Assembly: GCA_020850635.1 (NCBI GenBank)
Contig: JADZEH010000009.1
Span: 1 to 38,913, forward strand
DNA: 38,913 nucleotides
Origin: Candidatus Doudnabacteria bacterium
Lineage (GTDB): Bacteria; Patescibacteriota; Doudnabacteria; UBA920
Direction of reading: 5' to 3'
Part shown: one piece after another, positions 7,240-23,065 of the stretch
How the letters are laid out: each line of letters opens with the position of its first letter
How positions within the stretch are numbered: the first letter of the stretch is position 1
Notes under the pieces: model-generated
The model's database searches: none
Told to the model about the DNA's origin: nothing
The model's input: the letters and a program-made list of their open reading frames with translations, nothing else
Position numbers and translations under genes: made by a program

Positions 7240-7269
7240 ATCGCCCTCTCGGCGGTTTTTTGATACAAT
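7240..7269 (+). promoter_or_regulatory. Terminator hairpin fused to extended -10 (Gmad2 gene)
   Basis: ATCGCC (7240-7245), 5-nt loop, GGCGGTTTTTTG, then A and TACAAT (7264-7269). The T-tract supplies the TG of an extended -10 (TGA-TACAAT). The gene starts 27 nt further on without a ribosome site. The terminator half has no plus-strand gene before it, since the minus-strand DUF84 gene lies in between. Confidence 0.75.
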
Positions 7270-7296
7270 CAAGCTAGATTAATAATCTTAAAACCT

Positions 7297-7782: not shown

Positions 7783-7830
7783 ATTTTATATTTAAGTTTG
7801 GAAAATAGCGTCGGGATATACTAAAAAACT

Positions 7831-8673
7831 ATGTCTGATTATTACAGCGGTAAACGCACAAAGAATTTATATGTTCCAGGAGCCTCAGAGCCGTTTCGTT
7901 TGTCTCGATCAAAGCTCGAACTGTTTTTGAATTGTCCGCGATGCTTTTACATGGATCGTCGTCTTGGGGTAGGGCAGCCACCAGGCTTTCCGTTTAATCT
8001 CAACTCTGCAGTAGATCACTTGCTCAAAAAAGAGTTTGATGTTCATCGTGCTCAAGGCAAGCCTCACCCTTTGATGGAAAGCTATGGTGTTGATGCCGTG
8101 CCATATCAGCACGATCAATTAGATGTTTGGCGAGAAAATTTCACTGGAGTTGGTTTCCATCATAAACCAACTAATTTATATATTTTTGGTGCAGTTGATG
8201 ATGTTTGGGTTAATCCAGCAGGGGAGTTAATTGTGGTTGATTACAAAGCGACCTCAAAAGATACTGAAGTTAACTTAGACGCAGCTTGGCAAGATGGTTA
8301 CAAGCATCAGATGGAAATCTATCAATGGTTGTTTCGCCAAAATGGTTTTAAGGTTTCACCGACAGGATATTTTGTTTACTGTAATGGTAAGCGCGATAAA
8401 GAAGCGTTTGACGCGAAGCTTGAGTTTGATATTAAACTCATTCCATATGTTGGCGATGACAGTTGGATCGAAGGCGTTATTCAAAAAGCTTCAGAATGCT
8501 TGAATGGAGAAATGCCACCAATCAGCACTTCTTGCGATTTCTGCGTGTATCGCCAAGCCGCTTCTTCTGTGGAGCATTCCGATTCACCGAAGACTGTTAG
8601 TGCTCCAAAATCAAAACCTGCTCGAACCAAGAAATCTGTTGCAAACACCGAAACTCAAACCTTGTTTGGTTAA
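7831..8673 (+). CDS. PD-(D/E)XK nuclease with four-Cys Fe-S-like signature
   Basis: 280 residues. Nuclease core: GAVDDVWV (Asp123/124), IVVDYKA (Asp137-Tyr-Lys139, a D-x-K variant of the catalytic pair) and QMEIYQW (Gln160) as in RecB-like enzymes. Cys35 and Cys38 (LNCPRCFY) and Cys235 and Cys238 (SCDFCVY) bracket the core, like the Fe-S clusters of Cas4 and AddB nucleases. The C-terminal 40 residues are a basic Ser/Lys/Pro tail. No cas genes are near, so a repair or DNA-processing role is more likely. TATACT lies 8 nt before the ATG and there is no ribosome site; the flavin reductase gene follows after 3 nt. Confidence 0.85.
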   Translation: MSDYYSGKRTKNLYVPGASEPFRLSRSKLELFLNCPRCFYMDRRLGVGQPPGFPFNLNSAVDHLLKKEFDVHRAQGKPHPLMESYGVDAVPYQHDQLDVWRENFTGVGFHHKPTNLYIFGAVDDVWVNPAGELIVVDYKATSKDTEVNLDAAWQDGYKHQMEIYQWLFRQNGFKVSPTGYFVYCNGKRDKEAFDAKLEFDIKLIPYVGDDSWIEGVIQKASECLNGEMPPISTSCDFCVYRQAASSVEHSDSPKTVSAPKSKPARTKKSVANTETQTLFG

Positions 8674-8676
8674 AAT

Positions 8677-9369
8677 ATGCAAACCTTTAGTCCTGAAATT
8701 ACGAAAATTGAAAAGCTGACTTCGAACATACTTGAGTTAAGTATGGTTATAGAAGGCGGCGAGTTTTTGACGTTCATCCCAGGGCAGTTCGTTCAGTTTA
8801 TCATCGGTGACAAAGTATTTCGTTCGTATTCAATAATTTCCTTACCCGAAGAGTTACCATTACTTAAATTTTGTATCAAGCTTGAAGACGGTGGCGTGGG
8901 TTCAGAGTATGTGCGCTTGCTCAAAGTAGGGGACAGTGTACCCATGCGTGGTCCTACCGGAAAGTTTGTAGTTGGTGAAGCACAAGAGTCTGCTGTCTTT
9001 GTAGCCAATGGAGTTGGGGTCGCCCCTTTCTATAGTATGATCCCAAACGTGCTAACCAAAAACCCAGAGGCTCAAGCCTCATTAATTTTTGGTGTTCGGA
9101 CTGAATCAGATATCTTTTATCATAAATTTTTTACATCGTTAGCCGAAAACCATAGTAATTTTAATTTTGTTCAAGCGCTTTCCCAACCTCAATCAGAGTG
9201 GCATGGCTATACTGGACGAGTTACAAAATACATAGAAGAAAATTATCACGAGCTTTCTAACTCAACATTTTATCTTTGCGGGAGTTTAGGAATGGTTCAA
9301 GATGTTCGGGCAATTTTAATGCAAAATGGTCATCCGACTGACAAAATTAAGTTGGAAATTTTTACTTAA
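8677..9369 (+). CDS. FAD/NAD(P)H-dependent oxidoreductase (ferredoxin reductase fold)
   Basis: 230 residues, one FNR module. FAD domain about 1-100 with RSYS (49-52) that binds the flavin; NAD(P) domain about 104-230 with NGVGVAPF (111-118) and CGS (201-203). It moves electrons between NAD(P)H and an acceptor; no ferredoxin or Fe-S domain is fused and the partner is unknown. It starts 3 nt after the nuclease stop without a ribosome site, so the two are cotranscribed and perhaps translationally coupled. The nuclease's putative Fe-S cluster could be related, but that is conjecture. Confidence 0.88.
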   Translation: MQTFSPEITKIEKLTSNILELSMVIEGGEFLTFIPGQFVQFIIGDKVFRSYSIISLPEELPLLKFCIKLEDGGVGSEYVRLLKVGDSVPMRGPTGKFVVGEAQESAVFVANGVGVAPFYSMIPNVLTKNPEAQASLIFGVRTESDIFYHKFFTSLAENHSNFNFVQALSQPQSEWHGYTGRVTKYIEENYHELSNSTFYLCGSLGMVQDVRAILMQNGHPTDKIKLEIFT

Positions 9370-9375
9370 ATTTGA

Positions 9376-9404
9376 TTGCTTTTTGAGTCTAAAAGTCGTA
9401 TACT
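9376..9404 (+). promoter_or_regulatory. Promoter of the bactofilin-like gene
   Basis: TTGCTT at 9376-9381, 17-nt spacer, TATACT at 9399-9404. Leader about 20 nt, with no ribosome site. Confidence 0.7.
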
Positions 9405-9430
9405 TAAGTAAATAATTAGCATAGAAACAT

Positions 9431-10588
9431 ATGAAAAAACTATGGGTAGTCGCAGGGTTAGTCCTTGCCTTGGGCTTGATGGCACCACGTGTGCAAGCCG
9501 CAGAGTTTATCGCTCCTAGTCCTAGTCAAAATGGCACAATTTCGGTGAGTGGTGAAGGTCATCGCAATCTTTACGTTGCTGGAGGAAGTGTTAATGTTTC
9601 ATCTAATGTCGCTGGTGATTTATTCGCTGCTGGTGGTAAAATTTTGATCACTGGTAATGTCGAACAAGATTTAGTTATTGGAGGTGGTTCTGTTACGGTT
9701 AATGGTAATGTTGGTGGTGATGTCCGTATTGGTGGTGGTGATATTACTATTACTGGTCAGGTTGCTGGAGATGTCTTAGTTGGTGGTGGTAGTGTGACTT
9801 TATCATCGACATCTCGTATTGGTGGTGATTTAATTGCTGGAGCAGGGGATATGACTATTGAGGCTCCTGTTGCTGGCCAAGTGCGTATTGGTGGTGGCAT
9901 AGTCTATATTAACAGTGCAATTACCGGAAATGTTTGGGTTCAATCTGATGAAGAGTTACGTTTTGGTCCCAAAGCCGTAATTACAAATCCAGTTACTCAC
10001 AAAGGTTTTAAAGAAGCTGTAACTGAAGAAGGTGCTCAGGTTTCAAAAATCGATTTCTCTCAAGTGGAGCGTCGACAAGGTCAAGCAATGGCAGGAATTT
10101 TAACCGGTGCCTTTGTTATTAAACTTCTTGCTTTAATCTTAGCCGCGTGGTTGTTGATTCACTTCTTGCCACGTCGAGTTCGAATAGTTGTTGAAGGTGT
10201 GCGACAAAAACCATGGATGAGTCTAGGACTTGGTTTTCTTGGTATGATTGCTTTCCCAGTCGGGATTATTATCTTACTTCTAACCTTTGTTGGTTATTAT
10301 GTTGCGTTTATTGCCTTGGCCTGGTTTATCCTTGCTATGCTAGTTACATGTTTGCTTAGTGCGATTGTTGTTGGTGCGTTTGTTGAAAAATTATTAATGA
10401 AGCGCTCTGAATTAAAAATTGATTGGCAAGCAGTGGTTATTGGTGTAGTCATTTCTGCAGTATTGTGTCTCATTCCAGTAATTGGTGGTTTGATTATGAT
10501 GGTCATTGCTTTCATGACGTTCGGTTCATTGCTCCGCATGGCTGGTCATCAAATTAATCTCGAACGACAAGCAGACTCACAGTCTTAG
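9431..10588 (+). CDS. Exported bactofilin-like beta-helix protein with C-terminal membrane domain
   Basis: 385 residues. A cleavable signal peptide (1-23, ending VQAAEF), then a beta-helix of short Gly-rich turns (about 38-170: repeats such as GGSVTVNGNVGGDVRIGGG), a helical linker, and four membrane helices from about 222 to 370. The repeats resemble the bactofilin / polymer-forming cytoskeletal fold (DUF583), but here the domain is exported and tied to the membrane instead of cytosolic. It may form an extracytoplasmic patch at the envelope; no experiment on such fusions is known to me. It is the first gene of a likely operon with ybaB and the carboxypeptidase. Confidence 0.78.
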   Translation: MKKLWVVAGLVLALGLMAPRVQAAEFIAPSPSQNGTISVSGEGHRNLYVAGGSVNVSSNVAGDLFAAGGKILITGNVEQDLVIGGGSVTVNGNVGGDVRIGGGDITITGQVAGDVLVGGGSVTLSSTSRIGGDLIAGAGDMTIEAPVAGQVRIGGGIVYINSAITGNVWVQSDEELRFGPKAVITNPVTHKGFKEAVTEEGAQVSKIDFSQVERRQGQAMAGILTGAFVIKLLALILAAWLLIHFLPRRVRIVVEGVRQKPWMSLGLGFLGMIAFPVGIIILLLTFVGYYVAFIALAWFILAMLVTCLLSAIVVGAFVEKLLMKRSELKIDWQAVVIGVVISAVLCLIPVIGGLIMMVIAFMTFGSLLRMAGHQINLERQADSQS

Positions 10589-10627
10589 TGAAAATTATTA
10601 GACGAATAACGAAAGGGGTAATTTCAG

Positions 10628-10906
10628 ATGGGAATTTTCGACAAGTTAAAAGATGTAAGCGAAATGCGCAAGCAAGCTAAGCAGATTGAAAGCATGCTTG
10701 CTAAAGAAATAGTAGTCGGACAGTCCGGTGGTGGGAAGATCAAAATTACTATTGATGGAAACCAGAATGTGCAGAGTGTAGAAGTTGATGAATCAATCGC
10801 GGGTGATAAAAGTGAAGTCGCCCGTCATATTCGTGCGGCCCTAGAAGATTTAACAAGTAAGCATAAGAAAATGTTGCAGTCTCAATTCGGCAGCATGATG
10901 AAATAA
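10628..10906 (+). CDS. ybaB: YbaB/EbfC family nucleoid-associated protein
   Basis: 92 residues, family-typical. The small alpha-beta-alpha fold is recognisable from the Gly-rich SGGGKIKITIDGNQNVQSVEVD core and the C-terminal helix ending MLQSQFGSMMK. YbaB dimers bind DNA with little sequence preference. It often sits next to recR or dnaX, neither of which is here. Unusually for this region it has a plausible ribosome site (AAGGGG, about 10 nt before the ATG). Confidence 0.92.
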   Translation: MGIFDKLKDVSEMRKQAKQIESMLAKEIVVGQSGGGKIKITIDGNQNVQSVEVDESIAGDKSEVARHIRAALEDLTSKHKKMLQSQFGSMMK

Positions 10907-10909
10907 CTC

Positions 10910-11818
10910 ATGATAAAACAAGTCCTCTATCTATTCATAGTTGTCGCCGTTTTGATGCCCGTTTCAGCATCTGCTTTGACCATGGATGAACTTATTTCTG
11001 GCCAAAGTGGTTTAAGTTTTGGTAATGGCCAAGTGTTGGGTACGCAAAACTTTACAGCACACTCAGTGGTGGTTTTAAATCAGATAACAGGGGAGACGTT
11101 GCTGTCACAGAATCCAACAGACTCATGGGAACCTGCGAGTTTAACTAAATTGCTTACTGCGCTGACCGTCCTCGATACTAAGCCAAACTTTAATCGGGTT
11201 TGTACAATTGATCGGGTTGATCAGGCTAGTGGGGCTCGTCTTGCGGCGGTTGATGGGGGAGCGTACTTAATGAAAGACTTATTCGCCGCCATGCTTGTTG
11301 GTTCGGCTAATAATGCAGCGAATGCGTTAGCGAATCAATGTACTGGACTATCAAAGCAAGCTTTTCTTAATAAAATGAATGAAAAAGCGAAGTCGCTCGG
11401 TGCGACTAATTCTCACTTTGTTGATCCCAGTGGTTTAAGTGAAAGTAATCGGACTACTGCCGCTGATATGGCCGTTATTGCCAACGCTGCGTTCAGTACT
11501 CAAATTATTCGTGAGTACGCTCAAATGCGCACGGTTAGTTTCTCCAGTCGTAATCGGCCAATAAAAACTCATAATTTAACCAGCACATCGAAATCAATGT
11601 TTGAAGACCCGAGTTTCAATCTCGTTGCTGGAAAAACAGGGTTACTTAACAATTATAATTACGCTGCGTCTACTCGCAATCCCGCAGGACAATATTTGAT
11701 TACGGTGGTGCTTGGAAGTCCGTCACAACAAGATTCCTTCAATAGCACTAAAGTTGCGGCATCCTTAGGCTTTGGCAAAATTGCCAGCAAGGTCGCGGCA
11801 GCATCAGCGAAAAAATAA
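10910..11818 (+). CDS. D-alanyl-D-alanine carboxypeptidase (peptidase S11)
   Basis: 302 residues with an N-terminal signal peptide (1-22). The S11 motifs are SLTK with catalytic Ser77, SAN at 132-134 and KTG at 242-244. It trims the terminal D-Ala from peptidoglycan pentapeptides outside the cell, limiting cross-linking. It lacks the long C-terminal beta domain of DacA and ends soon after the catalytic fold. The ATG lies 3 nt after the ybaB stop, so translation is probably coupled. Confidence 0.93.
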   Translation: MIKQVLYLFIVVAVLMPVSASALTMDELISGQSGLSFGNGQVLGTQNFTAHSVVVLNQITGETLLSQNPTDSWEPASLTKLLTALTVLDTKPNFNRVCTIDRVDQASGARLAAVDGGAYLMKDLFAAMLVGSANNAANALANQCTGLSKQAFLNKMNEKAKSLGATNSHFVDPSGLSESNRTTAADMAVIANAAFSTQIIREYAQMRTVSFSSRNRPIKTHNLTSTSKSMFEDPSFNLVAGKTGLLNNYNYAASTRNPAGQYLITVVLGSPSQQDSFNSTKVAASLGFGKIASKVAAASAKK

Positions 11819-11824
11819 ACACAA

Positions 11825-12250
11825 ATGCAACCATACATTTTCTACGCCATTCTTTCTGCTTTCTTTGCGTCTCTTGTCGCGATTTTCGGAAAGATTGGAA
11901 TTAAGGGTGTAGATAGTAACTTAGCGGTGGCAATTCGTACCGTGATTATTGTTGGTTTTGCGTGGATGATTGTCTGGGTGCAAGGCAATGCCGCTGATGT
12001 TTTTAAAATCACTAAGTACTCTTATGTCTTTATAATTCTTTCTGCAATCGCGACCGGTTTGTCGTGGTTGTTTTATTACAAAGCTTTGCAATTAGGCGAA
12101 GCTAGTCGTGTCGCGCCCATTGATAAGTTAAGTGTGGCTTTAACGGTGATTATGGCTTTTGTCTTTTTAGGAGAAAAAGCTACCCCAGGAAATGTTATTG
12201 GAGGCGCCTTAGTCGCAGCCGGTGTGCTGGTGACTGTGTTAGTAAAATAA
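11825..12250 (+). CDS. Single-domain EamA transporter-like membrane protein
   Basis: 141 residues with four to five hydrophobic helices (about 3-20, 31-50, 65-85, 93-115, 120-140) and the EamA ending VTVIMAFVFLGEKATPGNVIGGALVAAGVLV. It is half the size of usual DMT permeases, as in small-multidrug-resistance-sized proteins, so it must act as a dimer. Substrate unknown. It follows the carboxypeptidase by 6 nt and closes the plus-strand run. Confidence 0.85.
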   Translation: MQPYIFYAILSAFFASLVAIFGKIGIKGVDSNLAVAIRTVIIVGFAWMIVWVQGNAADVFKITKYSYVFIILSAIATGLSWLFYYKALQLGEASRVAPIDKLSVALTVIMAFVFLGEKATPGNVIGGALVAAGVLVTVLVK

Positions 12251-12261
12251 ATTTTGGATAA

Positions 12262-12306
12262 AAAAAATCGGCGGGGGACACGAGGATTCTTGATCCTGTG
12301 TCCCGC
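12262..12306 (-). terminator. Terminator of the 12317-13020 gene pair
   Basis: Minus-strand hairpin GGGACA ... TGTCCC extended inward by AGGAT/ATCCT, followed after CCGCCG by a run of eight T (12268-12261). The stop of the upstream gene is 10 nt away. Confidence 0.8.
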
Positions 12307-12316
12307 GCCTTTGGGT

Positions 12317-12730
12317 TCAGCCGTCGTTGGTGCAGCGAAGTGGCAACGACAATGGTTGTTTGCATTGGATGCAGTTGGTGTCGGTCGCGTGCGAGACATC
12401 CGGGTTGGTAATCTCGCGTGGAACGATCAGCTGGCTGCACTTCGGACAGCGTCCGGCCAGTTTGTCCGCCGTTTGCTTGATGCGTTGTCTCGCGATGGGC
12501 TTGATCGCATTGTTAGAGGCCAGTGCCTTGAGCATTGCGATGAACGACAGATGGTGTCGAACTCCGCAATTTTCGACTGACTTGCAGACCTCCTCCAGTC
12601 GTCGTCCGGTTGGGCTGTCGAGCGCCTGCTCGCCGAGCAGAATCGCGAGTTCGCGAATTTTATCGACCTCTTCACCGCGATACCTCGCATCCGAGATGGG
12701 GGTGTTGGGATCTTTCTTCGTCTGCGTCAT
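12317..12730 (-). CDS. Uncharacterised protein with C-terminal zinc ribbon
   Basis: 137 residues from the ATG at 12728-12730, preferred because GGAGGAA lies 7 nt upstream (12743-12737); a frame open seven codons earlier lacks one. The N-terminal two thirds are helical (IRELAILLGEQALDS, HLSFIAMLKALAS) with no family I recognise. The C-terminus has two Cys pairs, CPKC near residue 94 and CIQC near 120, plus a last Cys, typical of a zinc ribbon that may bind nucleic acid or protein. It lies 17 nt downstream of the 90-aa gene in the same operon. GC-richer than its neighbours. Confidence 0.7.
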   Translation of the reverse strand: MTQTKKDPNTPISDARYRGEEVDKIRELAILLGEQALDSPTGRRLEEVCKSVENCGVRHHLSFIAMLKALASNNAIKPIARQRIKQTADKLAGRCPKCSQLIVPREITNPDVSHATDTNCIQCKQPLSLPLRCTNDG

Positions 12731-12747
12731 GCGTGTTTCCTCCGTAA

Positions 12748-13020
12748 TCACTTGCGAGTGGTTTCCTCGAGTTTGACCTCGGAGAGGTCTCCCTCAAAAT
12801 TTTTCGGTACTTTCACGTACAGATAGTACGTGCTGAGCCCCTTAAGCTCATGGTCACACCAGTCCAGCTTGGGAATCCAGAGGCCATTTTGCTCCGCCCA
12901 TGCCACCGCCGCTGCGTGGAGCAAATCAAATGTTTTCCCGTACTCTGGTTTATCTTTGTGATGCGGTCCTCCCGATGGCGGGAAGGATTTGCTAAATTTC
13001 TTGATTTTGGTGATGGTCAT
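12748..13020 (-). CDS. Uncharacterised small protein
   Basis: 90 residues, soluble, with a basic N-terminus (MTITKIKKFSKSF) and a compact aromatic middle (HAAAVAWAEQNGLWIPKLDWCDHELKG). I do not recognise a family. The ribosome site GGAGGT is 7-8 nt before the ATG. It is the first gene of a two-gene minus-strand unit between the plus-strand EamA and mnmA genes, with the same GC-rich codon style as the other single inserts. I find no clear promoter in front of it. Confidence 0.65.
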   Translation of the reverse strand: MTITKIKKFSKSFPPSGGPHHKDKPEYGKTFDLLHAAAVAWAEQNGLWIPKLDWCDHELKGLSTYYLYVKVPKNFEGDLSEVKLEETTRK

Positions 13021-13087
13021 GGTATTTACCTCCGTACCCGACCCAAATTTCGTCCTACCAAGTAATCAGTAATAAATTTCTAACTAC

Positions 13088-13116
13088 TTGCTAAGACCAA
13101 ACTAATAATGTACAAT
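13088..13116 (+). promoter_or_regulatory. mnmA promoter
   Basis: TTGCTA at 13088-13093, 17-nt spacer, TACAAT at 13111-13116. The start of transcription would be near 13123, giving a leader of about 23 nt with no ribosome site. Confidence 0.7.
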
Positions 13117-13145
13117 TATCACATATTTTTATTGATTTGTCAATT

Positions 13146-14300
13146 ATGGAAGTAGGGGAGTTAACTTTAACTAAGCCTATCACCAAACCAGCAACGCGGA
13201 CAAAAAAGCCGCGTGTTTTAATGGCATTATCTGGTGGAATTGATTCCGCAGTATCAGCCCAACTTTTGTTAGAACAAGGTTATGAAGTTGAAGCAGCATT
13301 TATGAAAAATTGGTCTGATACGACTGGTTTGAAGTTAAATGAGTGTCCTTGGCTACAGGACAGGCAAGACGCGATGCGCGTTGCGGCATTTTTGCGCATC
13401 CCGCTTCATACAATCGATTTTGAGAAGGAGTATACTGAGCGTGTCATGAGTTATTTCTTTGAAGAGTACAAAAATGGGCGGACTCCAAACCCCGACGTGA
13501 TGTGTAACAAGGAGATCAAGTTCAAGTTGCTCTATGATTGGGCCATAGCTCATGGTTTTGAGTATATCGCCACTGGTCATTATGCACGTGTCGCACAATT
13601 AAAAGGTAGCGGTGGGGAAGTGACATATTCGCTGCAACGCAGTGCCGATGAGTTCAAAGATCAAACCTATTTCATCTACAACATCAAGACAGAACAACTC
13701 CCACACATATTATTTCCGATTGGTGGTATTCAAAAAAGCGATGTCAGAAAGCGTGCACAGGAGTTGAAGTTGCCCAATGCGGACAAAAAGGAATCGATGG
13801 GTTTATGTTTTGTCGGTAAGATTCGTTTGAAAGACTTTTTGGAACAACAGCTTAAACCTAAGCCTGGGCTAATTGTGGACCGGAACGGATTAAAAGTAGG
13901 CGAACATGAAGGCCTTCATAATTACACAATTGGTCAAAGACAGGGAATACGTATTGGTGGCGATGGCGGTCCGTGGTATGTCGCAAAAAAGTCACCTGTG
14001 GATAACTTATTAGTCGTTACAAACGACCCAAATGATGAAATTCTCCAAATTCGTGAAATTCAGATCCACTCTACCAACTGGATTAACTTTGATCCCCTTA
14101 AGACTGGTGCGCAGTTAACAGCGCGATATCGTCATCAAGGTGAGTTAGTGAAAGTCATACTCTCCCCTGTTCCCTCAGTTGATAAAAACGATCAGTATTA
14201 CAAAGTTGAGTTTGATGAGGTTCAGTTAGCTGTAGCCAGTGGACAAAGCTTGGTGTTGTATGATGGCGAGATCTGTGTTGGCGGTGGCGTTATTGTATAA
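13146..14300 (+). CDS. mnmA: tRNA-specific 2-thiouridylase MnmA
   Basis: 384 residues from ATG 13146; a TTG nine bases upstream is less likely as it extends into the leader. PP-loop ATP-binding motif SGGIDS at 29-34, first catalytic Cys120 in PNPDVMCNKEIKF, second Cys221 in ESMGLCFVG, and the tRNA-binding and beta-barrel domains to the end. MnmA makes 2-thiouridine at position 34 of tRNA-Gln, -Lys and -Glu. Two tRNA-Gln genes lie in the same window. An N-terminal extension of about 22 residues precedes the PP-loop domain. Confidence 0.95.
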   Translation: MEVGELTLTKPITKPATRTKKPRVLMALSGGIDSAVSAQLLLEQGYEVEAAFMKNWSDTTGLKLNECPWLQDRQDAMRVAAFLRIPLHTIDFEKEYTERVMSYFFEEYKNGRTPNPDVMCNKEIKFKLLYDWAIAHGFEYIATGHYARVAQLKGSGGEVTYSLQRSADEFKDQTYFIYNIKTEQLPHILFPIGGIQKSDVRKRAQELKLPNADKKESMGLCFVGKIRLKDFLEQQLKPKPGLIVDRNGLKVGEHEGLHNYTIGQRQGIRIGGDGGPWYVAKKSPVDNLLVVTNDPNDEILQIREIQIHSTNWINFDPLKTGAQLTARYRHQGELVKVILSPVPSVDKNDQYYKVEFDEVQLAVASGQSLVLYDGEICVGGGVIV

Positions 14301-14494
14301 AAAAGAGGCGCTGATTGCTCAGCGCCTTGTCGGATCCTCGTCGGAGAAATGACTCCTTTCTAAGAATCGGACTGACAAAAGATGGCTATGACGGTTAGAG
14401 AAGGGTTCGTCTCATGGAGAAAGTCGGGAGGACCAAGTTGCTTCCCGTGACTCGGAGACAGAGTGAACCTTCGTGGCTTGCCATCTTTAGACCT
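14298..14494 (-). ncRNA. Unidentified structured RNA with own promoter and terminator
   Basis: Minus-strand transcript of about 195 nt predicted from a TTGACT-17-TACTTT promoter (14529-14501) to a terminator (stem 14327-14319 with 14314-14306, then TCTTTTTT). The 5' domain is one long interrupted hairpin: AAAGATGGC near 14490 pairs with GCCATCTTT near 14380, enclosing GAAGGTTC/GAACCCTTC, GTCTC/GAGAC and GGGAAG/CTCCC. A second hairpin pairs GTCCGATTCTT with GAGGATCCGAC (10 of 11 pairs). No open reading frame over 29 codons exists and none has a ribosome site. Length and rod-like 5' domain recall 6S RNA, but I cannot assign a family; SRP, RNase P and tmRNA signatures are absent. Confidence 0.6.
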
Positions 14495-14500
14495 ATCTCT

Positions 14501-14529
14501 AAAGTAACACGCTGTTTATTTAGAGTCAA
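14501..14529 (-). promoter_or_regulatory. Promoter of the structured RNA
   Basis: Minus-strand -35 TTGACT (14529-14524), 17-nt spacer, TG-T-TACTTT extended -10 (14506-14501). The -35 begins 1 nt after the hppA terminator stem. Confidence 0.6.
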
Positions 14530-14530
14530 A

Positions 14531-14570
14531 GCATAAAAAAGACCCTCCAAATGGAGGGTCTTTTTTATGC
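14531..14570. terminator. Bidirectional terminator after hppA
   Basis: Perfect 18-bp stem (14531-14548 with 14553-14570), loop AAAT, with A-tract and T-tract inside the stem ends. It immediately follows the hppA stop codon on the minus strand. Confidence 0.95.
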
Positions 14571-16580
14571 TTATGGTTTGATGAACTTTACGAGGAGCAG
14601 AGCGACAATGTTGATGATTTTGATCATCGGGTTAATCGCAGGACCAGCAGTGTCTTTGTAAGGATCACCAACTGTGTCACCAGTAACCGCAGCTTTATGA
14701 GCTTCGCTACCCTTACCACCAAAGTTACCTTCTTCAATGTACTTCTTGGAGTTATCCCAAGCCGCACCACCGGTGGTCATAGAGATACCAACGAAGATAC
14801 CAGTGACGATAGTTCCAACAAGTAAACCACCTAAAGCTTCAGCACCAAGGGTTAGTCCAACCAGAATTGGCGCAACCACTGGAAGTAAAGCTGGAGCAAT
14901 CATTTGTTTGATGGCTGACTTAGTGACAATATCTACAGCTTTTGAATAGTCTGGTTTACCAGTGCCTTCTAAGATGCCTGGAATTTCACGGAATTGGCGA
15001 CGAACTTCTTCAACCACTGCTTTGGCAGCTTGTCCAACAGCGGACATCGCCATGCTAGCGAATAGATATGGAAGTAAACCACCGATAAGCAAACCAACTA
15101 AGACTTTGCTGTCTGCAAGGTCGAACACGACGATGATGTTATGAACAACAGCGAGTTCTTGGGTATAAGCGGCAAACAAGACCATAGCGGCAAGTCCGGC
15201 TGAGGCAATAGCGTAACCTTTTGTTACAGCTTTGGTAGTGTTCCCTACTGCATCTAATGGATCGGTAATGTTGCGAACGCTTTCAGGCATGTTAGCCATT
15301 TCAGCAATACCACCAGCGTTATCAGTGATTGGTCCGAACGCATCAATTGCTACGATAATACCAGTCAATGACAACATGCTCATAACTGACAAAGCAATTC
15401 CGTACAAACCTGCTAAGTGATATGCGCTCAAGATAGCGATAATAATCACCAAGACAGGTAAAGCAGTAGACTGCATTCCGATAGCCAAGCCTTGAATGAT
15501 GTTGGTACCGTGACCAGTAGTAGAGGCTTCAGCAATTTTTTTGACTGGACCAAAACTCTTGGAAGTATAGTATTCAGTGATAAGCACAATGGCAGCGGTC
15601 ACGAAGATACCAATCAAGGAAGCCCAGTACAAGTTCATGGTGGAGTACAAACCGTTATCTGCCATCAATCTTTGGGTAATAGGGTAAAAGGCGATTGCCG
15701 ATAAAACTCCCGTAACCGCAAGGCTCTTGTACAAAGCACCCATAATGTTTTGAGATTTGCCCAAGCGGACAAACCAAGTTCCAATGATAGTAGTAATAAT
15801 AGAGGCGCCACCTAGAACTAATGGGTAAATTATGGCGTTGTTGAAACTAGGGAAGACAGTATGACCGAGTAAGATAACGGCAATAGCAGAAACGGCGTAA
15901 GTTTCAAAAAGGTCAGCAGCCATTCCAGCACAGTCTCCTACGTTATCCCCTACGTTATCAGCAATAACACCAGGGTTGCGAGGATCGTCTTCAGGAATTC
16001 CACTTTCAATTTTACCAACCATGTCGGTACCGACATCAGCACCTTTGGTGAAAATTCCACCGCCTAGTCTGGCAAAAACTGAAATTAAACTGGAACCGAA
16101 CGCTAGTCCGATTAACGCACCTAAATCTTTAGTCAGAAAGTAAAAACCGGTAACACTAAGTAAGCCTAAACCAACCACAAACAAACCTGTAACCGCGCCA
16201 CCTTCAAAAGCTAGGCTGAGTGCGTTTTTTAAACTCACTGTCGCTGCTTGAGCAGTACGGACGTTGGCTCTAACAGAAATATGCATCCCAATAAAGCCAG
16301 CAACTGCAGAAAGAACTGCACCGACAATAAACGCGTAAATAGTGTTTGCAGAGAAATTGCCGAGGTACATTAAAATTCCAATAACCACCGCAACAATAGC
16401 AACAGTTTTATACTGGCGGGTAAGATAAGCTTTAGCACCAGCTTGAATTGCTGAAGCGATCTCTAGCATTTTTCCTTGACCAGGGCTGGATTTTAAAATT
16501 CGGTAAATTAAAAAAGCCCCATACAGGAGTGCAATGACGCTCGCGCCTATCGCGTACCACAAAAGTGAGTTTTCAGACAT
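14571..16580 (-). CDS. hppA: Membrane-bound proton-translocating pyrophosphatase
   Basis: 669 residues, about 16 membrane helices, family-typical. The catalytic region at 173-217 carries [24 protein letters not shown] and [10 protein letters not shown], which hold PPi-Mg. The enzyme pumps H+ (or Na+) with the energy of pyrophosphate. Lys450 in [10 protein letters not shown] occupies the position where K+-dependent members have Ala, so this one should be K+-independent and a proton pump. In a reduced bacterium it can recover energy from PPi made by tRNA charging and sugar activation. The promoter lies about 45-75 nt upstream and the leader holds an inverted repeat. Confidence 0.95.
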
Positions 16581-16595
16581 AGACTTAAAACCTTA

Positions 16596-16607
16596 GGTCA
16601 AATGACC
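16596..16607. promoter_or_regulatory. Inverted repeat in the hppA leader
   Basis: GGTCA-AA-TGACC (5-bp arms) 16 nt upstream of the hppA ATG and downstream of its -10. It could be an operator or a small hairpin near the start; no binding protein can be named. Confidence 0.4.
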
Positions 16608-16630
16608 ATTTCTTAATGATTGTTGCCATA

Positions 16631-16659
16631 ATTATAAGTAAAATAATGATTTTCATCAA
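16631..16659 (-). promoter_or_regulatory. hppA promoter (TTGATG-17-TATAAT)
   Basis: Minus-strand -35 TTGATG at 16659-16654, 17-nt spacer, consensus -10 TATAAT at 16636-16631. Confidence 0.78.
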
Positions 16660-16674
16660 CCCCTAGCCAAATTC

Positions 16675-16710
16675 AAAAAACTGTCCCGACATAATGCCGA
16701 AACAGTTTTT
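16675..16710 (-). terminator. Terminator of the PsbP-like gene
   Basis: Minus-strand AAAAACTGT pairs with ACAGTTTTTT, with a small inner CGGC/GTCG stem. The stop codon of the gene (16711-16709) overlaps the outer arm. Confidence 0.75.
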
Positions 16711-17242
16711 ATTTGGTAATTTCTACTGTGGACAACAAGGCTTTGAAGTATGGTAGTAATTCTGGCGAGGTCCCTAGGTCAAATGTGATGTAATTGTTTC
16801 CTTGGCGTATACCGACAAGCATATCGTTAACCGTTATTCCGTTGATACCGTTGATGGTTGTTTTGGTTGTGGTTAAGCCACTCGTTGCTACATAACCTTT
16901 TGCATTGATGTAAATCCGAATGTTATCTGCTTTATCGTTATCGGGTTTTAGAATAATGATGTAACCGATGTTTGGGTCTGTGGCCGAGTAAGTGGTTACG
17001 GTCCATTCTTTCGGGTATTTAAAGTCTAGTGGATATTTGGAATCTTCGTATTGATTCCAGTCTTTTGTCGAGAGTGGAACATTTGTTTGAGCATATGTTG
17101 TGTTGTTACTAAGTGATGGGTTAAGACCAGTTTTCTGAACAATAATAGGACCTAATTCCCTAGTCAAAAGCAGCGCTGAATAAATACTGACGACAGCGAT
17201 GAACAAAACCAGAAAGAAAGATTTTGATTGTGTGGAAAGCAT
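16709..17242 (-). CDS. Membrane-anchored PsbP-like protein
   Basis: 177 residues: an N-terminal membrane segment (about 8-27), a short Ser/Asn/Thr linker, then an alpha-beta domain from about residue 60 with YPLDFKYPKEWTV, ADNIRIYINAKG and the end PYFKALLSTVEITK. The Y-P-x-x-F-x-YP-x-x-W pattern is typical of PsbP-like/DUF1795-type domains common in Patescibacteria exported proteins, whose function is not known. It follows the 59-aa membrane gene by 20 nt and is probably cotranscribed with it. No ribosome site. Confidence 0.7.
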   Translation of the reverse strand: MLSTQSKSFFLVLFIAVVSIYSALLLTRELGPIIVQKTGLNPSLSNNTTYAQTNVPLSTKDWNQYEDSKYPLDFKYPKEWTVTTYSATDPNIGYIIILKPDNDKADNIRIYINAKGYVATSGLTTTKTTINGINGITVNDMLVGIRQGNNYITFDLGTSPELLPYFKALLSTVEITK

Positions 17243-17262
17243 TGTAAGTTGAAAATTAAGAG

Positions 17263-17442
17263 CTATTTGCTAAACAAGCTTTGTAAATCGGCCCCCGTAC
17301 CACAATAGTATAGGTGTTCGGTGAGTGGAGCGCAGTATCCTGGGTTCTTTTGGACAAAAGAGTATTTTGGTAAAAACCAATACAAAAAGACAACAATTGC
17401 GACAATGGCTACGTATCCAGTATATTTGATAATTTTAAACAT
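17263..17442 (-). CDS. Small single-pass membrane protein (59 aa)
   Basis: A 59-codon open frame, ATG at 17442-17440 and TAG at 17265-17263. The protein starts MFKIIKYTGYVAIVAIVVFL: a positive N-terminus, one membrane helix (about 8-24) and an extracytoplasmic tail with two Cys (NPGYCAPL and YYCGTG) that could form a disulfide. A TATACT -10 (17476-17471) lies about 28 nt upstream and the PsbP-like gene follows. The pattern of charge, helix and Cys spacing, and the fit to the gap, argue for a real gene. No ribosome site and no family that I recognise. Confidence 0.65.
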   Translation of the reverse strand: MFKIIKYTGYVAIVAIVVFLYWFLPKYSFVQKNPGYCAPLTEHLYYCGTGADLQSLFSK

Positions 17443-17501
17443 TTTGTTTCAGGAGCTAAGTTCTAGATATAGTATATACCAAAATATAACGAAAGGCGAT
17501 A

Positions 17502-18062
17502 TTAAGGGTTTTGAAGTGTGTTAATAATGCTATCGACTTGAGTTTTAAGTTCAGGCAACCCTTTGTTATTTAAAATTACGTAATCGGCGAGTTTGATACA
17601 ACCCAAAAGATTTTGCTTACCAGGATCGTTAGAAGTTAATTCCCTTTGTTCATCTTCTACAAATTTTTCAAACGAAATACTATCCGTTGAGCTTTCCCTA
17701 TTTTTAATTCGTTCGTATCTTTGTTTGATATCCGCATCAATTGCCAGTAAAGAAAAGTTTGGTTTATTTTTTAAAGTCTCGACTTCGCCAATAGTCCTCA
17801 CTGATTCAATAATTGTGTTACCGGAGTTTTGCTGGGCTCTCTTGTATAGTTCGCTCACGATATAGCCTGGGCCATGGGTGGCACGAAGGTCATTGGCTAC
17901 ATCAACCATGCTGTCCCGATTTACAGCTAGGCCACGGCGATTAATTTCTTCAATTAAAAAGTCACGAACAGAGTAAGACTTAAAACCGTAATTATCGGTT
18001 AAGTATTTTGTAACGGTGCCTTTACCTGCGCCAATCGTTCCTGTAATGCCGATAACTGTCAT
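17502..18062 (-). CDS. P-loop nucleoside/dephospho-CoA kinase-like protein
   Basis: 186 residues. Walker A GTIGAGKGT at 7-15, then a kinase-like layout: FKSYSVRDFL, an acidic/Arg helix near 45, TIIESVRTIGEVE near 84 as the Walker B-like strand, and a lid-like segment IKNRESSTDS near 118. This resembles dephospho-CoA and adenylate kinases but does not match either closely enough to name the substrate. It starts 5 nt after the engB stop, so it is the second gene of that unit. A different reading would be a nucleotide kinase dedicated to tRNA or cofactor metabolism. Confidence 0.7.
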   Translation of the reverse strand: MTVIGITGTIGAGKGTVTKYLTDNYGFKSYSVRDFLIEEINRRGLAVNRDSMVDVANDLRATHGPGYIVSELYKRAQQNSGNTIIESVRTIGEVETLKNKPNFSLLAIDADIKQRYERIKNRESSTDSISFEKFVEDEQRELTSNDPGKQNLLGCIKLADYVILNNKGLPELKTQVDSIINTLQNP

Positions 18063-18067
18063 ACTAA

Positions 18068-18634
18068 TTAAAGAATTTGCTTGATAAGTTCGCTGACGCC
18101 AATTTTTTCTGTGGCGGAATAGGGAATTACCGGATAGGGATGAACACTATCTTCAATATCTTCAATTTGTTTCTTGAGTTCGTTTTTCTTGAGCTTGTCG
18201 ATTTTGTTGGCAACAACTACAACATTTTTGTTGGCGTCTTCAAGTTTGCGGAGCATGTCGCGATCGGAGTCAGTAATACCAACTTTAGCATCGATAATTA
18301 AAACGATTTTCTTTTGGTCAATGTTTGGATGCAAAGCATACCAATCAATAATTTCGGCCATGTGTCCCCTATGTTCTTTGGAGCCTTTGGCAAAACCATA
18401 ACCAGGAACATCCATGAGGTAAAAGGAGTTGTTAACCAAAAAGGCGTTAACAATTTTAGTTAAGCCGGGCGTTGGGCTCGAAAACGCTAAATCTTTACGT
18501 TGCACGATGTTGTTGATCACGCTAGACTTTCCTACATTAGAACGGCCTAGAAAGGCGATTTGAGGAATGCCATCAAACAGAATTTCATCATCTTCAACTA
18601 AACCTTTGATAAACTTGGCGGAAAGGATTTTCAT
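18068..18634 (-). CDS. engB: Ribosome biogenesis GTP-binding protein EngB (YihA/YsxC)
   Basis: 188 residues, family-typical. GTPase motifs: G1 GRSNVGKSSVINN near residue 30, G2 region TPGLTK, G3 DVPGYGFAKG near 74, G4 NKIDKLKKNE near 142 and G5 SATEKIG near 173. EngB acts late in assembly of the 50S subunit. The ATG follows a TATGCT -10 by exactly 6 nt with no ribosome site, so the message is probably leaderless. It is the first gene after the 36-nt terminator-promoter module. Confidence 0.95.
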   Translation of the reverse strand: MKILSAKFIKGLVEDDEILFDGIPQIAFLGRSNVGKSSVINNIVQRKDLAFSSPTPGLTKIVNAFLVNNSFYLMDVPGYGFAKGSKEHRGHMAEIIDWYALHPNIDQKKIVLIIDAKVGITDSDRDMLRKLEDANKNVVVVANKIDKLKKNELKKQIEDIEDSVHPYPVIPYSATEKIGVSELIKQIL

Positions 18635-18672
18635 GCCTTAAGCATAACAAAAAACCGCCATTTAGGCGATTT
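18635..18672 (-). promoter_or_regulatory. 36-nt stop-terminator-promoter-start module (EEP to engB)
   Basis: Minus strand, in order: TAA stop of the EEP gene (18673-18671), ATCGCC, 5-nt loop, GGCGGTTTTTT, G, T, TATGCT, 6 nt, ATG of engB. The hairpin pairs AAATCGCC with GGCGGTTT through one T-G wobble. The T-tract ends in the TG of an extended -10 (TGT-TATGCT). Intergenic length is exactly 36 nt, as at 20214 and 21541. Confidence 0.85.
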
Positions 18673-19438
18673 ATGTGAAATCGAGGAGAAGTGGGGAGTG
18701 GTCAGAGACCTCGTCTGGTAAAACTTTAAATTCGGTAACGTTGAGGTTGGGGGAGACGAATATATAGTCAGCATATTTTTCGGGTTTGGTGTAATGTGAA
18801 GTTCTGGTTGAAGTGATGCCGTATTCGGCAATCAAGTTTCGCAGTCCAGCATCCTCGATGATTTTTAAACTCTGGGTGGTGGGTAGGAGATTAAAGTCTC
18901 CGCATAAAACTGTATCCCCTGCTGTTTTTGCAATAAAATTTTTAATGTTCTGTGACTGCAAAAGGCGATCATCGCTATCGTTTTTGCCTTGACCATTCCA
19001 GAGACCGTGAAAATTAATTACTGTAAGAGGTTTATTCTTGTAATTAATTTTCACGTATTGAATGTTACGAGCATGATTGCCAACATCAACTTCATGAACG
19101 TAACCCCTTTCTTTGTATACAAACTCCTCGCCTTCTTCAAGAACTTCGAAATCATCTTTAACTAGCATTAGTAAGCCGTAATGGTCGCCATGGTGTGGTC
19201 TGAAGAATGTTTTAAACTCCGGGAGAACAGCTGATATTTCTTGAAGTCCATAAACCATCGCTTTAGAATTGTCTATTTCTATTCCACCGGCCGATTTTCC
19301 TTCTAAGTGTTCATATGGAGCTGACCAAATTTCTTGTAAACAAAAAACATCAGTGGTCGCTGAATGTTCTTTGAAAAAATTGAGTAAACCTTCTTTCCCC
19401 GCTCGTCCTCCCCAGGTGTTCAGTGTAATAATTCGCAT
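18671..19438 (-). CDS. Endonuclease/exonuclease/phosphatase family protein
   Basis: 255 residues, complete. EEP motifs: RIITLNTWGG at the N-terminus, CLQEIW near residue 33 (metal-binding Glu), INFHGLWNG near 140, LCGDFNLLP near 178, YADYIFVSPN near 220 and SDHSPLLLDF at the end. These give the Mg2+-dependent phosphodiesterase/phosphatase core; no signal peptide, so it acts in the cytosol. Substrate not determinable. It lies third in an operon with the small pilin-like gene and the CYTH gene, 20 nt after CYTH, with a possible AAGGAC ribosome site. Confidence 0.87.
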   Translation of the reverse strand: MRIITLNTWGGRAGKEGLLNFFKEHSATTDVFCLQEIWSAPYEHLEGKSAGGIEIDNSKAMVYGLQEISAVLPEFKTFFRPHHGDHYGLLMLVKDDFEVLEEGEEFVYKERGYVHEVDVGNHARNIQYVKINYKNKPLTVINFHGLWNGQGKNDSDDRLLQSQNIKNFIAKTAGDTVLCGDFNLLPTTQSLKIIEDAGLRNLIAEYGITSTRTSHYTKPEKYADYIFVSPNLNVTEFKVLPDEVSDHSPLLLDFT

Positions 19439-19458
19439 AAAACTGTAGTCCTTTTAAG

Positions 19459-20007
19459 TTATTCAGTGAAGCGCATATCGTGCCAATTTTGGCCGTACTC
19501 TTTTTGGATTAAAGTTCGTTCCCCTTCAGCCACCGATTTATTCTGCTCAAGTCCTAGTAGTGTAATCGCTTGTTGTAAGTGTTGTTCATCATGGCCTTCG
19601 ATTTCTAAATAGGCTGGGATGTTTGGGTATTCATCAAGATCAAATCTCCAGTCTTCATATTTCCATGAAGTGCGGTATTTTTCCTGATGGCCATAAATAA
19701 CTAGCCCGATAGCTTTAAAAAGATCTGCCATAGATTCAGGGTCATTTGTTGGAATATTAATTTCTGTGACTTGTTTTGATATCCCAATAAATTCTGGTTT
19801 GGATTTCCAAGTGATTTCAGACTTTCCGTCTGAGGTAGTGCGAATTCTTAAATACCACGGGTCGTTATCATCTGTAACCTCAGTAGGGCGAAACCAATCG
19901 ACGGTTAACTTTGTTTCAAGAACTTTTGTTGCACCAAGAGTTGTGAGCTTGTTGGTAATTTCAGATTTGTCGATATTTAAGACCTTGGTTTCAATTTCTT
20001 TGTTCAT
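19459..20007 (-). CDS. CYTH-domain protein (triphosphate tunnel fold)
   Basis: 182 residues. The N-terminal MNKEIETKVLNI provides the E-x-E-x-K signature of the CYTH superfamily, followed by alternating charged strands (YLRIRTT, ITWKSK, YRTSWKYEDWRFDLDEYP, AYLEIEG) lining the tunnel. Relatives are class IV adenylate cyclases, thiamine triphosphatases and inorganic triphosphatases; which one this is cannot be said. The ATG overlaps the stop of the preceding gene in an ATGA, so translation is coupled. Confidence 0.85.
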   Translation of the reverse strand: MNKEIETKVLNIDKSEITNKLTTLGATKVLETKLTVDWFRPTEVTDDNDPWYLRIRTTSDGKSEITWKSKPEFIGISKQVTEINIPTNDPESMADLFKAIGLVIYGHQEKYRTSWKYEDWRFDLDEYPNIPAYLEIEGHDEQHLQQAITLLGLEQNKSVAEGERTLIQKEYGQNWHDMRFTE

Positions 20008-20213
20008 TGTTCTAATTCTAATTTAATTCGATTCGATTGTTCAACTGCTTGCTGATTTATTTCCTTGGCTTGCTCAATTCCTTCTTGACCTTGTTCAAAT
20101 TGTGACTTTTCACCGTTTGATCCTTTAGTAAAATACAAGCCCGTAAGCACAGCGACTATAGCAAGGCTTATAATTAGGACTATTAGCATTGATCCCTTTT
20201 GTTTTTGAGTCAT
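20004..20213 (-). CDS. Small pilin-like membrane protein
   Basis: 69 residues: KQKGSMLIVLIISLAIVAVL gives a short basic leader, a Gly and a single long membrane helix, as in type IV prepilins and PilX-like minor pilins, but the Glu at +5 is missing and the exported part is only a Gln/Glu-rich helix (about 33-69, coiled-coil-like). It could be a degenerate pseudopilin or simply a bitopic protein. First gene of the operon with CYTH and EEP; TATCCT lies exactly 6 nt before the ATG, so the message should be leaderless. Confidence 0.65.
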   Translation of the reverse strand: MTQKQKGSMLIVLIISLAIVAVLTGLYFTKGSNGEKSQFEQGQEGIEQAKEINQQAVEQSNRIKLELEQ

Positions 20214-20252
20214 ATCGTTAGGATATCAAAAAACCGCCTTTTCGGCGATTTA
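20214..20252 (-). promoter_or_regulatory. 36-nt module before the pilin-like gene, with orphan stop
   Basis: Same architecture as at 18635: TAA (20252-20250), ATCGCC, 5-nt loop, GGCGGTTTTTT, G, A, TATCCT, 6 nt, ATG. Here the TAA ends no gene: the sequence before it is the terminator of the kinase gene at 20281. The module therefore looks like the surviving end of an earlier gene, separated by insertion of the kinase cassette. Confidence 0.8.
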
Positions 20253-20260
20253 CAAGATAT

Positions 20261-20292
20261 AAAAAAGACCGGCCCCATGGCTATGGGCCGGT
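20261..20292 (-). terminator. Terminator of the 20281 kinase gene
   Basis: Minus-strand stem ACCGGCCC / GGGCCGGT (20292-20285 with 20275-20268), then CTTTTTTAT. The TAG stop (20283-20281) lies in the loop. Confidence 0.88.
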
Positions 20293-20853
20293 ACGAGAAC
20301 AAATCATGGTTTCCGGAGCATCGACTAGCGGATCCAGTCTGGTCACCTCGTGGAACCCGTCGCGGTCGATTTTCTTCGCGAGCTGATGAAAAAGTTCGTA
20401 TGAGCGTCGTACTTCGTCTTCTCTGAAGAAAGACAGATTTTCGTGTTGTCTGGTTCTCATCTCCGACATCTTTGCGATACCGGGTTTCTGCCAGAACCAC
20501 TCGGAAACGTATTCAATCGAAGTGGTGAAGTACCAAGCGCTGATTCGACTGGCGCCGAGTTTATCGAGACGACTGATAATGCTCGTCCTGTCGCCGCTCG
20601 ACCCGTTCCAGGTGTCGAGAATGATTCTTGTTCTTGAGTTCGTTCTGAGGTTCTCCTCCAGCATCTTCCACATCATCCCCAAGGCATTGCGATGTCCGTC
20701 GGAGTACGGATCGAGATCTGTTTTTCCGCAGAGCTCGATGATGAGATTGTCGCGACTGATCAAGACGATGTCAGAATCTACTGCGACCACTCTCTCGCAG
20801 AAACTCGACTTTCCAGAAGCGCGCGGGCCAACGGTTAAGATGACTTCCTTCAT
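20281..20853 (-). CDS. P-loop kinase-like protein (polynucleotide kinase fold)
   Basis: 190 residues from the ATG at 20851-20853, chosen for the GGAGGAG site just upstream; ten extra codons in frame precede it. Walker A GPRASGKSS at 8-16, then VLISRDNLI near 30, RIILDTWNGSSGDR near 77 (Walker B-like) and an Arg-rich lid region RTRQHENLSFFREDEVRRSYE near 133, read in parts. This is the layout of the AAA_33/zeta-toxin/PNK-like kinases that phosphorylate nucleic-acid ends or small molecules; the substrate is unknown. Monocistronic, GC-rich, own promoter. Confidence 0.7.
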   Translation of the reverse strand: MKEVILTVGPRASGKSSFCERVVAVDSDIVLISRDNLIIELCGKTDLDPYSDGHRNALGMMWKMLEENLRTNSRTRIILDTWNGSSGDRTSIISRLDKLGASRISAWYFTTSIEYVSEWFWQKPGIAKMSEMRTRQHENLSFFREDEVRRSYELFHQLAKKIDRDGFHEVTRLDPLVDAPETMICSRTGP

Positions 20854-20886
20854 AACTCCTCCAGCGGGGTCGGAATTTACCACACA

Positions 20887-20915
20887 AGTTTAGCTTAAAA
20901 TTGAGGATATGTAAA
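20887..20915 (-). promoter_or_regulatory. Promoter of the 20281 kinase gene
   Basis: Minus-strand TTTACA (20915-20910), 17-nt spacer, TAAACT (20892-20887). The -35 lies 5 nt after the M23 terminator stem. Confidence 0.68.
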
Positions 20916-20938
20916 TAGAAACCGCCTTTAGGGCGGTT
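20915..20938 (-). terminator. Terminator of the M23 gene
   Basis: AACCGCC / GGCGGTT stem (20938-20932 with 20926-20920) followed on the minus strand by TTCTATTT; the T-tract is imperfect. Confidence 0.7.
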
Positions 20939-20949
20939 GTAGAAAAGAT

Positions 20950-21540
20950 TTAGTTTGAGACTGTTTGATCACCTTCTGGTTCAGCGTCTTGGACAAGTTT
21001 ATCATCAACGGTAATTTCTGTGAACTGAGCGGGGAGTCCTTTGGCATTGTGCATATTTGGACCATCTTGGAGATGGTAATGAATATGTGGTTCGCTTGTG
21101 TTGCCGGTGTTGCCGCAAAGTCCCAAGACATCTCCTTGTTTTACTTTGTCGCCAACTTTTACCGAAATAGAGTTATGTTTGAAATGGGCAAGTACACTCC
21201 ATTCACCATTGCCATGATCAATGACGATTGTATTGCCAGATAACATTACCCAGTCACTTTCTCCGATGGGATTATCTTGATTACCATCAATAACTTGTGA
21301 AATGACACCGTCAGCAGGAGCGATAACTTCTGATCCAAAAGCTTCGTAATCTTCTAAGTCCTTTCCTTCGTTAGAATGATCCTTTGTGAAGTCGTAAGCG
21401 AACATTTGGTTTTCAGGTCCATCCCCATCTTGGCCAAGGTGATTGTTTTTAGATGGATTTCTCCCACCGTTGCCAACTATCCAAGTTCCTTTGAAAGGAA
21501 GGGCTAGGGGAGTTTTGGTTTTATAATCTGAGGTGTTCAT
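20950..21540 (-). CDS. M23-family metallopeptidase domain protein
   Basis: 196 residues. LytM/M23 zinc motifs: HLGQDG with YDF (His35 and Asp near 50) and HIHYH near residue 152, with ADGVISQVID and VKVGDKVKQGDVLGLCGNTGN between them. M23 enzymes cut peptide cross-links of peptidoglycan. No signal peptide or membrane anchor is visible, so either export is atypical or the substrate is internal. Start chosen by the TATGCT -10 exactly 6 nt upstream, implying a leaderless message. Confidence 0.85.
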   Translation of the reverse strand: MNTSDYKTKTPLALPFKGTWIVGNGGRNPSKNNHLGQDGDGPENQMFAYDFTKDHSNEGKDLEDYEAFGSEVIAPADGVISQVIDGNQDNPIGESDWVMLSGNTIVIDHGNGEWSVLAHFKHNSISVKVGDKVKQGDVLGLCGNTGNTSEPHIHYHLQDGPNMHNAKGLPAQFTEITVDDKLVQDAEPEGDQTVSN

Positions 21541-21579
21541 GGTCTAAGCATATCAAAAAACCGCCAAGGAGGCGATTTA
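21541..21579 (-). promoter_or_regulatory. 36-nt stop-terminator-promoter-start module (HD to M23)
   Basis: TAA stop of the HD gene (21579-21577), ATCGCC, 5-nt loop, GGCGGTTTTTT, G, A, TATGCT, 6 nt, ATG of the M23 gene. Exactly 36 nt between stop and start, the same internal spacing as at 18635 and 20214; only loop, one -10 base and the last 6 nt differ. Confidence 0.87.
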
Positions 21580-22991: not shown

Positions 22992-23065
22992 TGGCTGGGG
23001 TACCAGGATTCGAACCTGGGATGAGCGGACCAGAACCGCTTGCCTTACCGCTTGGCTATACCCCA
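22992..23065 (-). tRNA. tRNA-Gln (anticodon CTG)
   Basis: Minus-strand cloverleaf: acceptor TGGGGTA with TACCCCA, D-arm GCCAAGCGGTAAGGC, anticodon arm AGCGG-TTCTGGT-CCGCT with anticodon CTG, T-arm CCAGG-TTCGAAT-CCTGG, discriminator G and encoded CCA. Reads CAG. I see no clear terminator downstream. Confidence 0.96.

Follow-up and report, generated by a model that had tools for sequence, protein, structure and literature searches.

Three 36-nt intervals between a TAA and an ATG, on the minus strand of a 38,913-nt contig from a Candidatus Doudnabacteria bacterium (JADZEH010000009.1; GTDB lineage Patescibacteriota; Doudnabacteria; UBA920; the whole contig is the window below), most probably each consist of two superimposed signals, an intrinsic terminator and a complete promoter of the housekeeping (sigma-70) type, the latter serving a leaderless gene. 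From the sequence statistics, we put the probability of this reading at about 0.8. The motif ATCGCC-N5-GGCGGTTTTTTG-N-TANNNT is common to these intervals, designated copies A, B and C, and to a plus-strand copy D at 7240, and in copies A, B and C ATCGCC-N5-GGCGGTTTTTTG is followed directly by N-TATNCT-N6-ATG. An earlier sequence-only reading had described three modules in which TAA and ATG are exactly 36 nt apart and a variant at 7240, and all are present as described, although copy D, which has the same terminator/-10 fusion (TGATACAAT), has its start codon 27 nt further on and so is leadered. The constancy is, as was then argued, beyond chance, with four occurrences of CGCC-N3-8-GGCGGTTTT in the window versus 0.01 expected from dinucleotide shuffles. 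Folded as RNA, the hairpins of copies A to C have 8-bp stems and about -10.3 kcal/mol, and the hairpin of copy D has -7.5 kcal/mol.

Transcription of the upstream gene would be terminated by the AAATCGCC/GGCGGTTT hairpin, acting as RNA, and the U-tract that follows it. In the DNA, the top of the 5′ arm of the hairpin (TCGCCN) would function as a -35 element, with the loop, 3′ arm, T6 and GN together forming the spacer of 17 bp. An extended -10 would draw its TG from the final T of the tract and the G after it, with TATNCT as the -10 hexamer, and the six nucleotides after it would set +1 on the A of the ATG, so that the downstream gene would be translated from a leaderless mRNA. This design appears to have been reached repeatedly, many times independently and with different stems, rather than spread as a mobile sequence, presumably because one short stretch must meet the demands of terminator, promoter and start-codon spacing together in a compact genome.

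The probable terminator hairpin

A pattern search of loci and stretches from the order gave 132 distinct leaderless starts fused to a T-tract, and a hairpin was counted where it scored 8 or more and ended in the T-tract. Such a hairpin is present at 80 of the 132 fused starts, versus a mean of 2.65 and a maximum of 7 when the upstream bases were shuffled, and at 144 of 1570 T6-7G runs overall. Within the CGCC class, a hand count found the wobble form ATCGCC..GGCGGT, with an inner T.G (U.G) pair, at 22 sites and the mirror form ACCGCC..GGCGAT at one. That one site is one of those 22 read on its other strand, leaving no independent C.A mismatches. The mirror form would retain the symmetry of the DNA but break the pair in RNA, and a wobble of one polarity therefore argues that the hairpin acts as RNA, as predicted for a terminator and not for a DNA operator.

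The same observations bear on the very improbable alternative that a dimeric DNA-binding regulator uses ATCGCC-N5-GGCGAT as an operator lying over the -35 region, with the hairpin incidental. Its position over the -35 and spacer region and a 5-nt loop that is fixed in most CGCC-type copies would suit an operator, but the 22:0 strand polarity of the wobble variants and a T-tract on one side only would not. Nor would the dozens of unrelated stems that build the same register in relatives (53 of the 80 fused hairpins have stems other than CGCC/GGCG) or the CGCC stem that non-fused terminators also share. A palindromic operator, with constant sequence and strand-independent symmetry, is disfavoured by the wobble polarity together with the diversity of stems. 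Intrinsic termination at these hairpins remains the favoured interpretation, with actual termination predicted from the sequence.

The probable promoter and leaderless start

Hexamers resembling a -10 are enriched exactly 2 nt after the T-run: three samples gave 4.1, 1.9 and 2.6 per 100 terminators, versus 0.6-0.9 per 100 at other offsets and 0.4-0.5 after T-runs that lack hairpins. With this distance, the last T and the next G become the TG of an extended -10, as the sequence-only reading had proposed, and ordinary leaderless promoters of the order have a TG at that place too (T 62%, G 62%). That reading overlooked, however, a -35-like hexamer in the 5′ arm or loop of the hairpin, separated from the -10 by 17 bp. 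In the window copies this hexamer, which begins at -23 counted from the -10, is TCGCCN. With CGCC stems excluded, T is found at -23 in 42 of 53 fused hairpins (79%) versus 69 of 374 terminators without a following -10 (18%; p=2.5e-18), and T-N-G from -23 in 51% versus 6% of the non-fused terminators. The enrichment of T and T-N-G peaks at spacer 17 and in no other register. T at -23 is retained in 31 of 42 hairpins after every TCGC arm is dropped (p=6e-13), and is found in 22 of 28 in a sample not selected on ATG, in which 6 is the most frequent distance to the start codon, and in 66% of the ordinary leaderless promoters of order-wide genomes. None of nine fused hairpins from outside the order has T at -23, so that the signal is not a product of the procedure. 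The hairpin arm thus most likely carries the -35 element of a sigma-70-type promoter, and the fixed 5-nt loop and T6 of the CGCC class would be accounted for because both hold TCGCC 17 bp from the -10.

Alternatively, an ordinary terminator and an ordinary promoter might merely be neighbours where intergenic space is short, the hairpin holding no -35 and the register reflecting only T-rich DNA that is favourable before an extended -10. Hairpin-less T-tract promoters do exist (52 of 132) and the fused hairpins outside the order, without T at -23, are as this explanation would have them, but the strong enrichment of T at -23 and G at -21 in the hairpin arm inside the order, at spacer 17 only, makes it improbable.

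The promoter classes differ in other respects. Among CGCC-type fused elements, A is present at position 4 of the -10 in only 1 of 27 (TATGCT, TATGAT, TATCAT and others, including the window sites 18646-18641 and 21552-21547), versus 34 of 52 hairpin-less T-tract promoters (p=4e-8). These hairpin-less promoters have a -35 of TNGCCA (T 62%, G 58%, C 44/50%, A 50%) instead of TTGACA, possibly from weak hairpins below the threshold or as a lineage-specific -35, and promoters without a T-tract lean to TTG at -35.

All three minus-strand copies have 6 nt between the -10 and the ATG, placing its A at the canonical +1. A pyrimidine at -1 and a purine at +1 are the usual signature of a transcription start site, and of the 132 fused starts 130 have C or T just before the ATG, as against 129 of 223 starts led by a Shine-Dalgarno sequence, which fits transcription starting on the A of the ATG. 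The start of the EngB-like GTPase downstream of copy A agrees with its relatives from residue 1. Initiation on the A of the ATG and translation of a leaderless mRNA, as previously suggested from the distance to the extended -10, are predicted on this evidence. Register, hairpin, RNA polarity, embedded -35 and pyrimidine at -1 together also favour what had been offered as one of two explanations, a strongly selected regulatory design. In a first-ATG gene scan of the sampled genome (310 kb of stretches and the window), -10s at 6 nt form only a mild peak and Shine-Dalgarno-led genes are commoner, so leaderless starts are a minority and one mode of two. The fused design accounts for 6 of 44 N6 candidates in this 349-kb sample.

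Several observations weigh against the superimposed terminator and promoter. TCGCCN is a weak match to TTGACA, agreeing at 3-4 of 6 positions. Fused hairpins follow co-directional genes in a ratio of 46:7 (27 unclear), but hairpin-less promoters do so at 31:8, with no difference between the two (p=0.4), and orientation alone is thus no proof of a terminator role. Copy B already has a separate terminator upstream. In addition, the fused starts were found by pattern, and the share of leaderless genes that use the design is only roughly known.

If terminator and promoter do overlap, their proximity could have a further consequence. E. coli RNA polymerase is reported often to remain on the DNA after termination, to diffuse and to be able to reinitiate nearby (PMC6978380, PMC6978322). 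By analogy, a polymerase that has terminated in this lineage might keep its hold on the DNA and begin again from the promoter that overlaps the terminator, so coupling the two genes; this is rather unlikely, and would add to, not replace, the superimposed terminator-promoter. A little less likely still is that, in the order, the terminator and the next promoter form one object with functional overlap, in which polymerase released at the U-tract would be handed directly to the promoter whose -35 is in the same hairpin, coupling neighbours without a shared transcript.

Recurrence and genomic context

The genome (868,613 bases in 38 contigs) has no exact copy of the motif beyond the four in the window, but the same architecture is present with other stems at three more sites (C1:7861, C1:8171 and C9:3062); it is the architecture, and not the exact motif, that recurs. 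All four exact copies lie within 14.3 kb (7240-21576 of the window) of the 869-kb genome, despite their unlike flanks. Such clustering might be left by a short dispersed REP/MITE-like repeat or cassette that holds a terminator and a promoter and is copied around the genome, a possibility that the sequence-only reading had considered in the form of a dispersed cassette-like element. We give that explanation hardly any credence, as there are only four copies, without fixed boundaries, their loops, six-base spacers and flanks share nothing, and other, unrelated stems give the same register in relatives; with an identity of 19-40% over 100-bp flanks, a mobile cassette was rejected.

Allowing one mismatch, the motif is found in 31 of 60 relatives, every one inside the order, and in none of 11 genomes of other orders; in many of these relatives N-TATNNT-N6-ATG comes next. 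In 49 genomes of the order, TTTTTTGNTATNNT-N6-ATG (TTTTTTGNTATNNTN6ATG) has 123 matches versus one for a reversed-pattern control, in line with the recurrence anticipated in relatives, and a hand count over a phylum-wide sample gave 28 genomes with it out of 30 in the order and 110 out of 303 elsewhere; close relatedness among some of the genomes means that the counts are not all independent. The best named matches of EngB are from Nomurabacteria, Magasanikbacteria and Falkowbacteria, and on this one protein the organism would be a Patescibacterium, probably from the Parcubacteria/Paceibacteria group. Nomurabacteria engB has TAGTAT-N6-ATG upstream of its start, but in the orthologous engB upstream regions of named relatives the terminator is not conserved in Nomurabacteria, and position-by-position conservation could not be shown. 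An engB-like gene of Portnoybacteria, a differently named Patescibacteria lineage, is preceded by AATCGCTAAGCAAGCGGTTTTTTAGTATAAT (in the 70 nt or so before position 2306 of L227), with the same hairpin/-35/-10 register and a leader.

Genes around the copies qualify the earlier proposal that the stop codon shares the hairpin stem and that a single element closes one gene and opens the next. A genuine stop codon does contribute its A's to the stem pairing in copies A and C. In copy B, the reading frame ending in the TAA is open for only 17 codons and the AAA_33 ORF upstream (20883-20281, minus strand) ends in a TAG at 20283-20281, overlapped by its own terminator-like hairpin just upstream of, and independent of, copy B. 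The fusion of terminator and promoter with a leaderless start stands as a sequence-based prediction, and the stop codon belongs to the unit in two of the three copies. The coordinates are listed in the table.

Table. Components of the four copies and an adjacent terminator-like hairpin in the window
Feature	Position	Strand	Remark
Copy A, TAA-to-ATG interval	18670-18635	minus	36 nt
Copy A, whole element	18635..18673	minus	
Copy A, TAA	18673-18671	minus	stop of Exo_endo_phos gene
Copy A, hairpin	18672-18652	minus	AAATCGCC-TAAAT-GGCGGTTT
Copy A, T6	18654-18649	minus	
Copy A, -35-like	18669-18664	minus	TCGCCT
Copy A, TG of extended -10	18649/18648	minus	
Copy A, -10	18646-18641	minus	TATGCT
Copy A, ATG, predicted leaderless	18634	minus	engB-like GTPase
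Copy B, TAA-to-ATG interval	20249-20214	minus	36 nt
Copy B, whole element	20214..20252	minus	
Copy B, TAA	20252-20250	minus	not the stop of any gene
Copy B, hairpin	20251-20231	minus	AAATCGCC-GAAAA-GGCGGTTT
Copy B, T6	20233-20228	minus	
Copy B, -35-like	20248-20243	minus	TCGCCG
Copy B, -10	20225-20220	minus	TATCCT
Copy B, ATG, predicted leaderless	20213	minus	69-aa membrane-anchored ORF (20213-20004)
AAA_33 terminator-like hairpin and T-tract	20261..20288	minus	GGCCCATAGCCATGGGGCC then GGTCTTTTTT; overlaps TAG stop; read from sequence
Copy C, TAA-to-ATG interval	21576-21541	minus	36 nt
Copy C, whole element	21541..21579	minus	
Copy C, TAA	21579-21577	minus	stop of HD-domain gene
Copy C, hairpin	21578-21558	minus	AAATCGCC-TCCTT-GGCGGTTT
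Copy C, T6	21560-21555	minus	
Copy C, -35-like	21575-21570	minus	TCGCCT
Copy C, -10	21552-21547	minus	TATGCT
Copy C, ATG, predicted leaderless	21540	minus	M23 peptidase
Copy D, whole element	7240..7269	plus	
Copy D, hairpin	7240-7256	plus	ATCGCC-CTCTC-GGCGGT
Copy D, T6, then TG	7256-7261	plus	
Copy D, -35-like	7241-7246	plus	TCGCCC
Copy D, -10	7264-7269	plus	TACAAT
Copy D, downstream ATG	7297	plus	Gmad2-domain protein gene

The TGA of the 69-aa ORF downstream of copy B overlaps the ATG of a CYTH-domain gene (ATGA), which suggests that the two may be translationally coupled. An Rfam scan of the window returned two tRNAs only, and two tRNA-Gln genes, with anticodons TTG and CTG, are located at 6494-6568 (plus strand) and 22992-23065 (minus strand).

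Relation to known terminators and promoters

Little is known of how transcription starts and stops in uncultured Patescibacteria, and the composite provides models of a promoter (-35 TNGNC/TCGCC, 17 bp, TGN, TATNNT, 6 nt, ATG) and of a terminator, and predicts RNA 5′ and 3′ ends directly. It illustrates the extent to which signals might be overlaid in a compact genome, as a space-saving design of about 36 bases per element at scattered places across the order, in a Patescibacteria lineage with tiny genomes, and offers a natural test case for the restart of a terminated RNA polymerase at an overlapping promoter.

As in other intrinsic (Rho-independent) terminators, a G+C-rich hairpin precedes a T-tract, the stop codon may overlap the stem and the stems vary freely, but here the 5′ arm or loop is also held to T-N-G at a constant distance, 21 nt ahead of the T-tract's end, and the T-tract leads into TG-N-TATNNT. 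Extended -10 sigma-70 promoters have TGN-TATNNT and a 17-bp spacer to a weak -35, all of which recur here, with the difference that a terminator hairpin and its T-tract furnish the DNA for both spacer and -35. In leaderless (TA-led) bacterial genes, the first T of a TANNNT lies about 12 bp ahead of the start codon (PMC3160421), the same distance as here, where the -10 hexamer likewise ends 6 nt before the ATG and there is no Shine-Dalgarno sequence; that description makes no mention of terminators, whereas here the preceding terminator would give the TG and the -35. In engineered yeast terminator-promoter bifunctional elements, one piece of DNA also ends one gene and starts the next (PMC10298055), but these are designed and eukaryotic, with no mechanism in common. 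We found no description in the open-licence literature of a terminator hairpin with an internal -35 as a recurrent overlay; each of the parts is already known, and what appears to be new is that they are repeatedly overlaid in this way.

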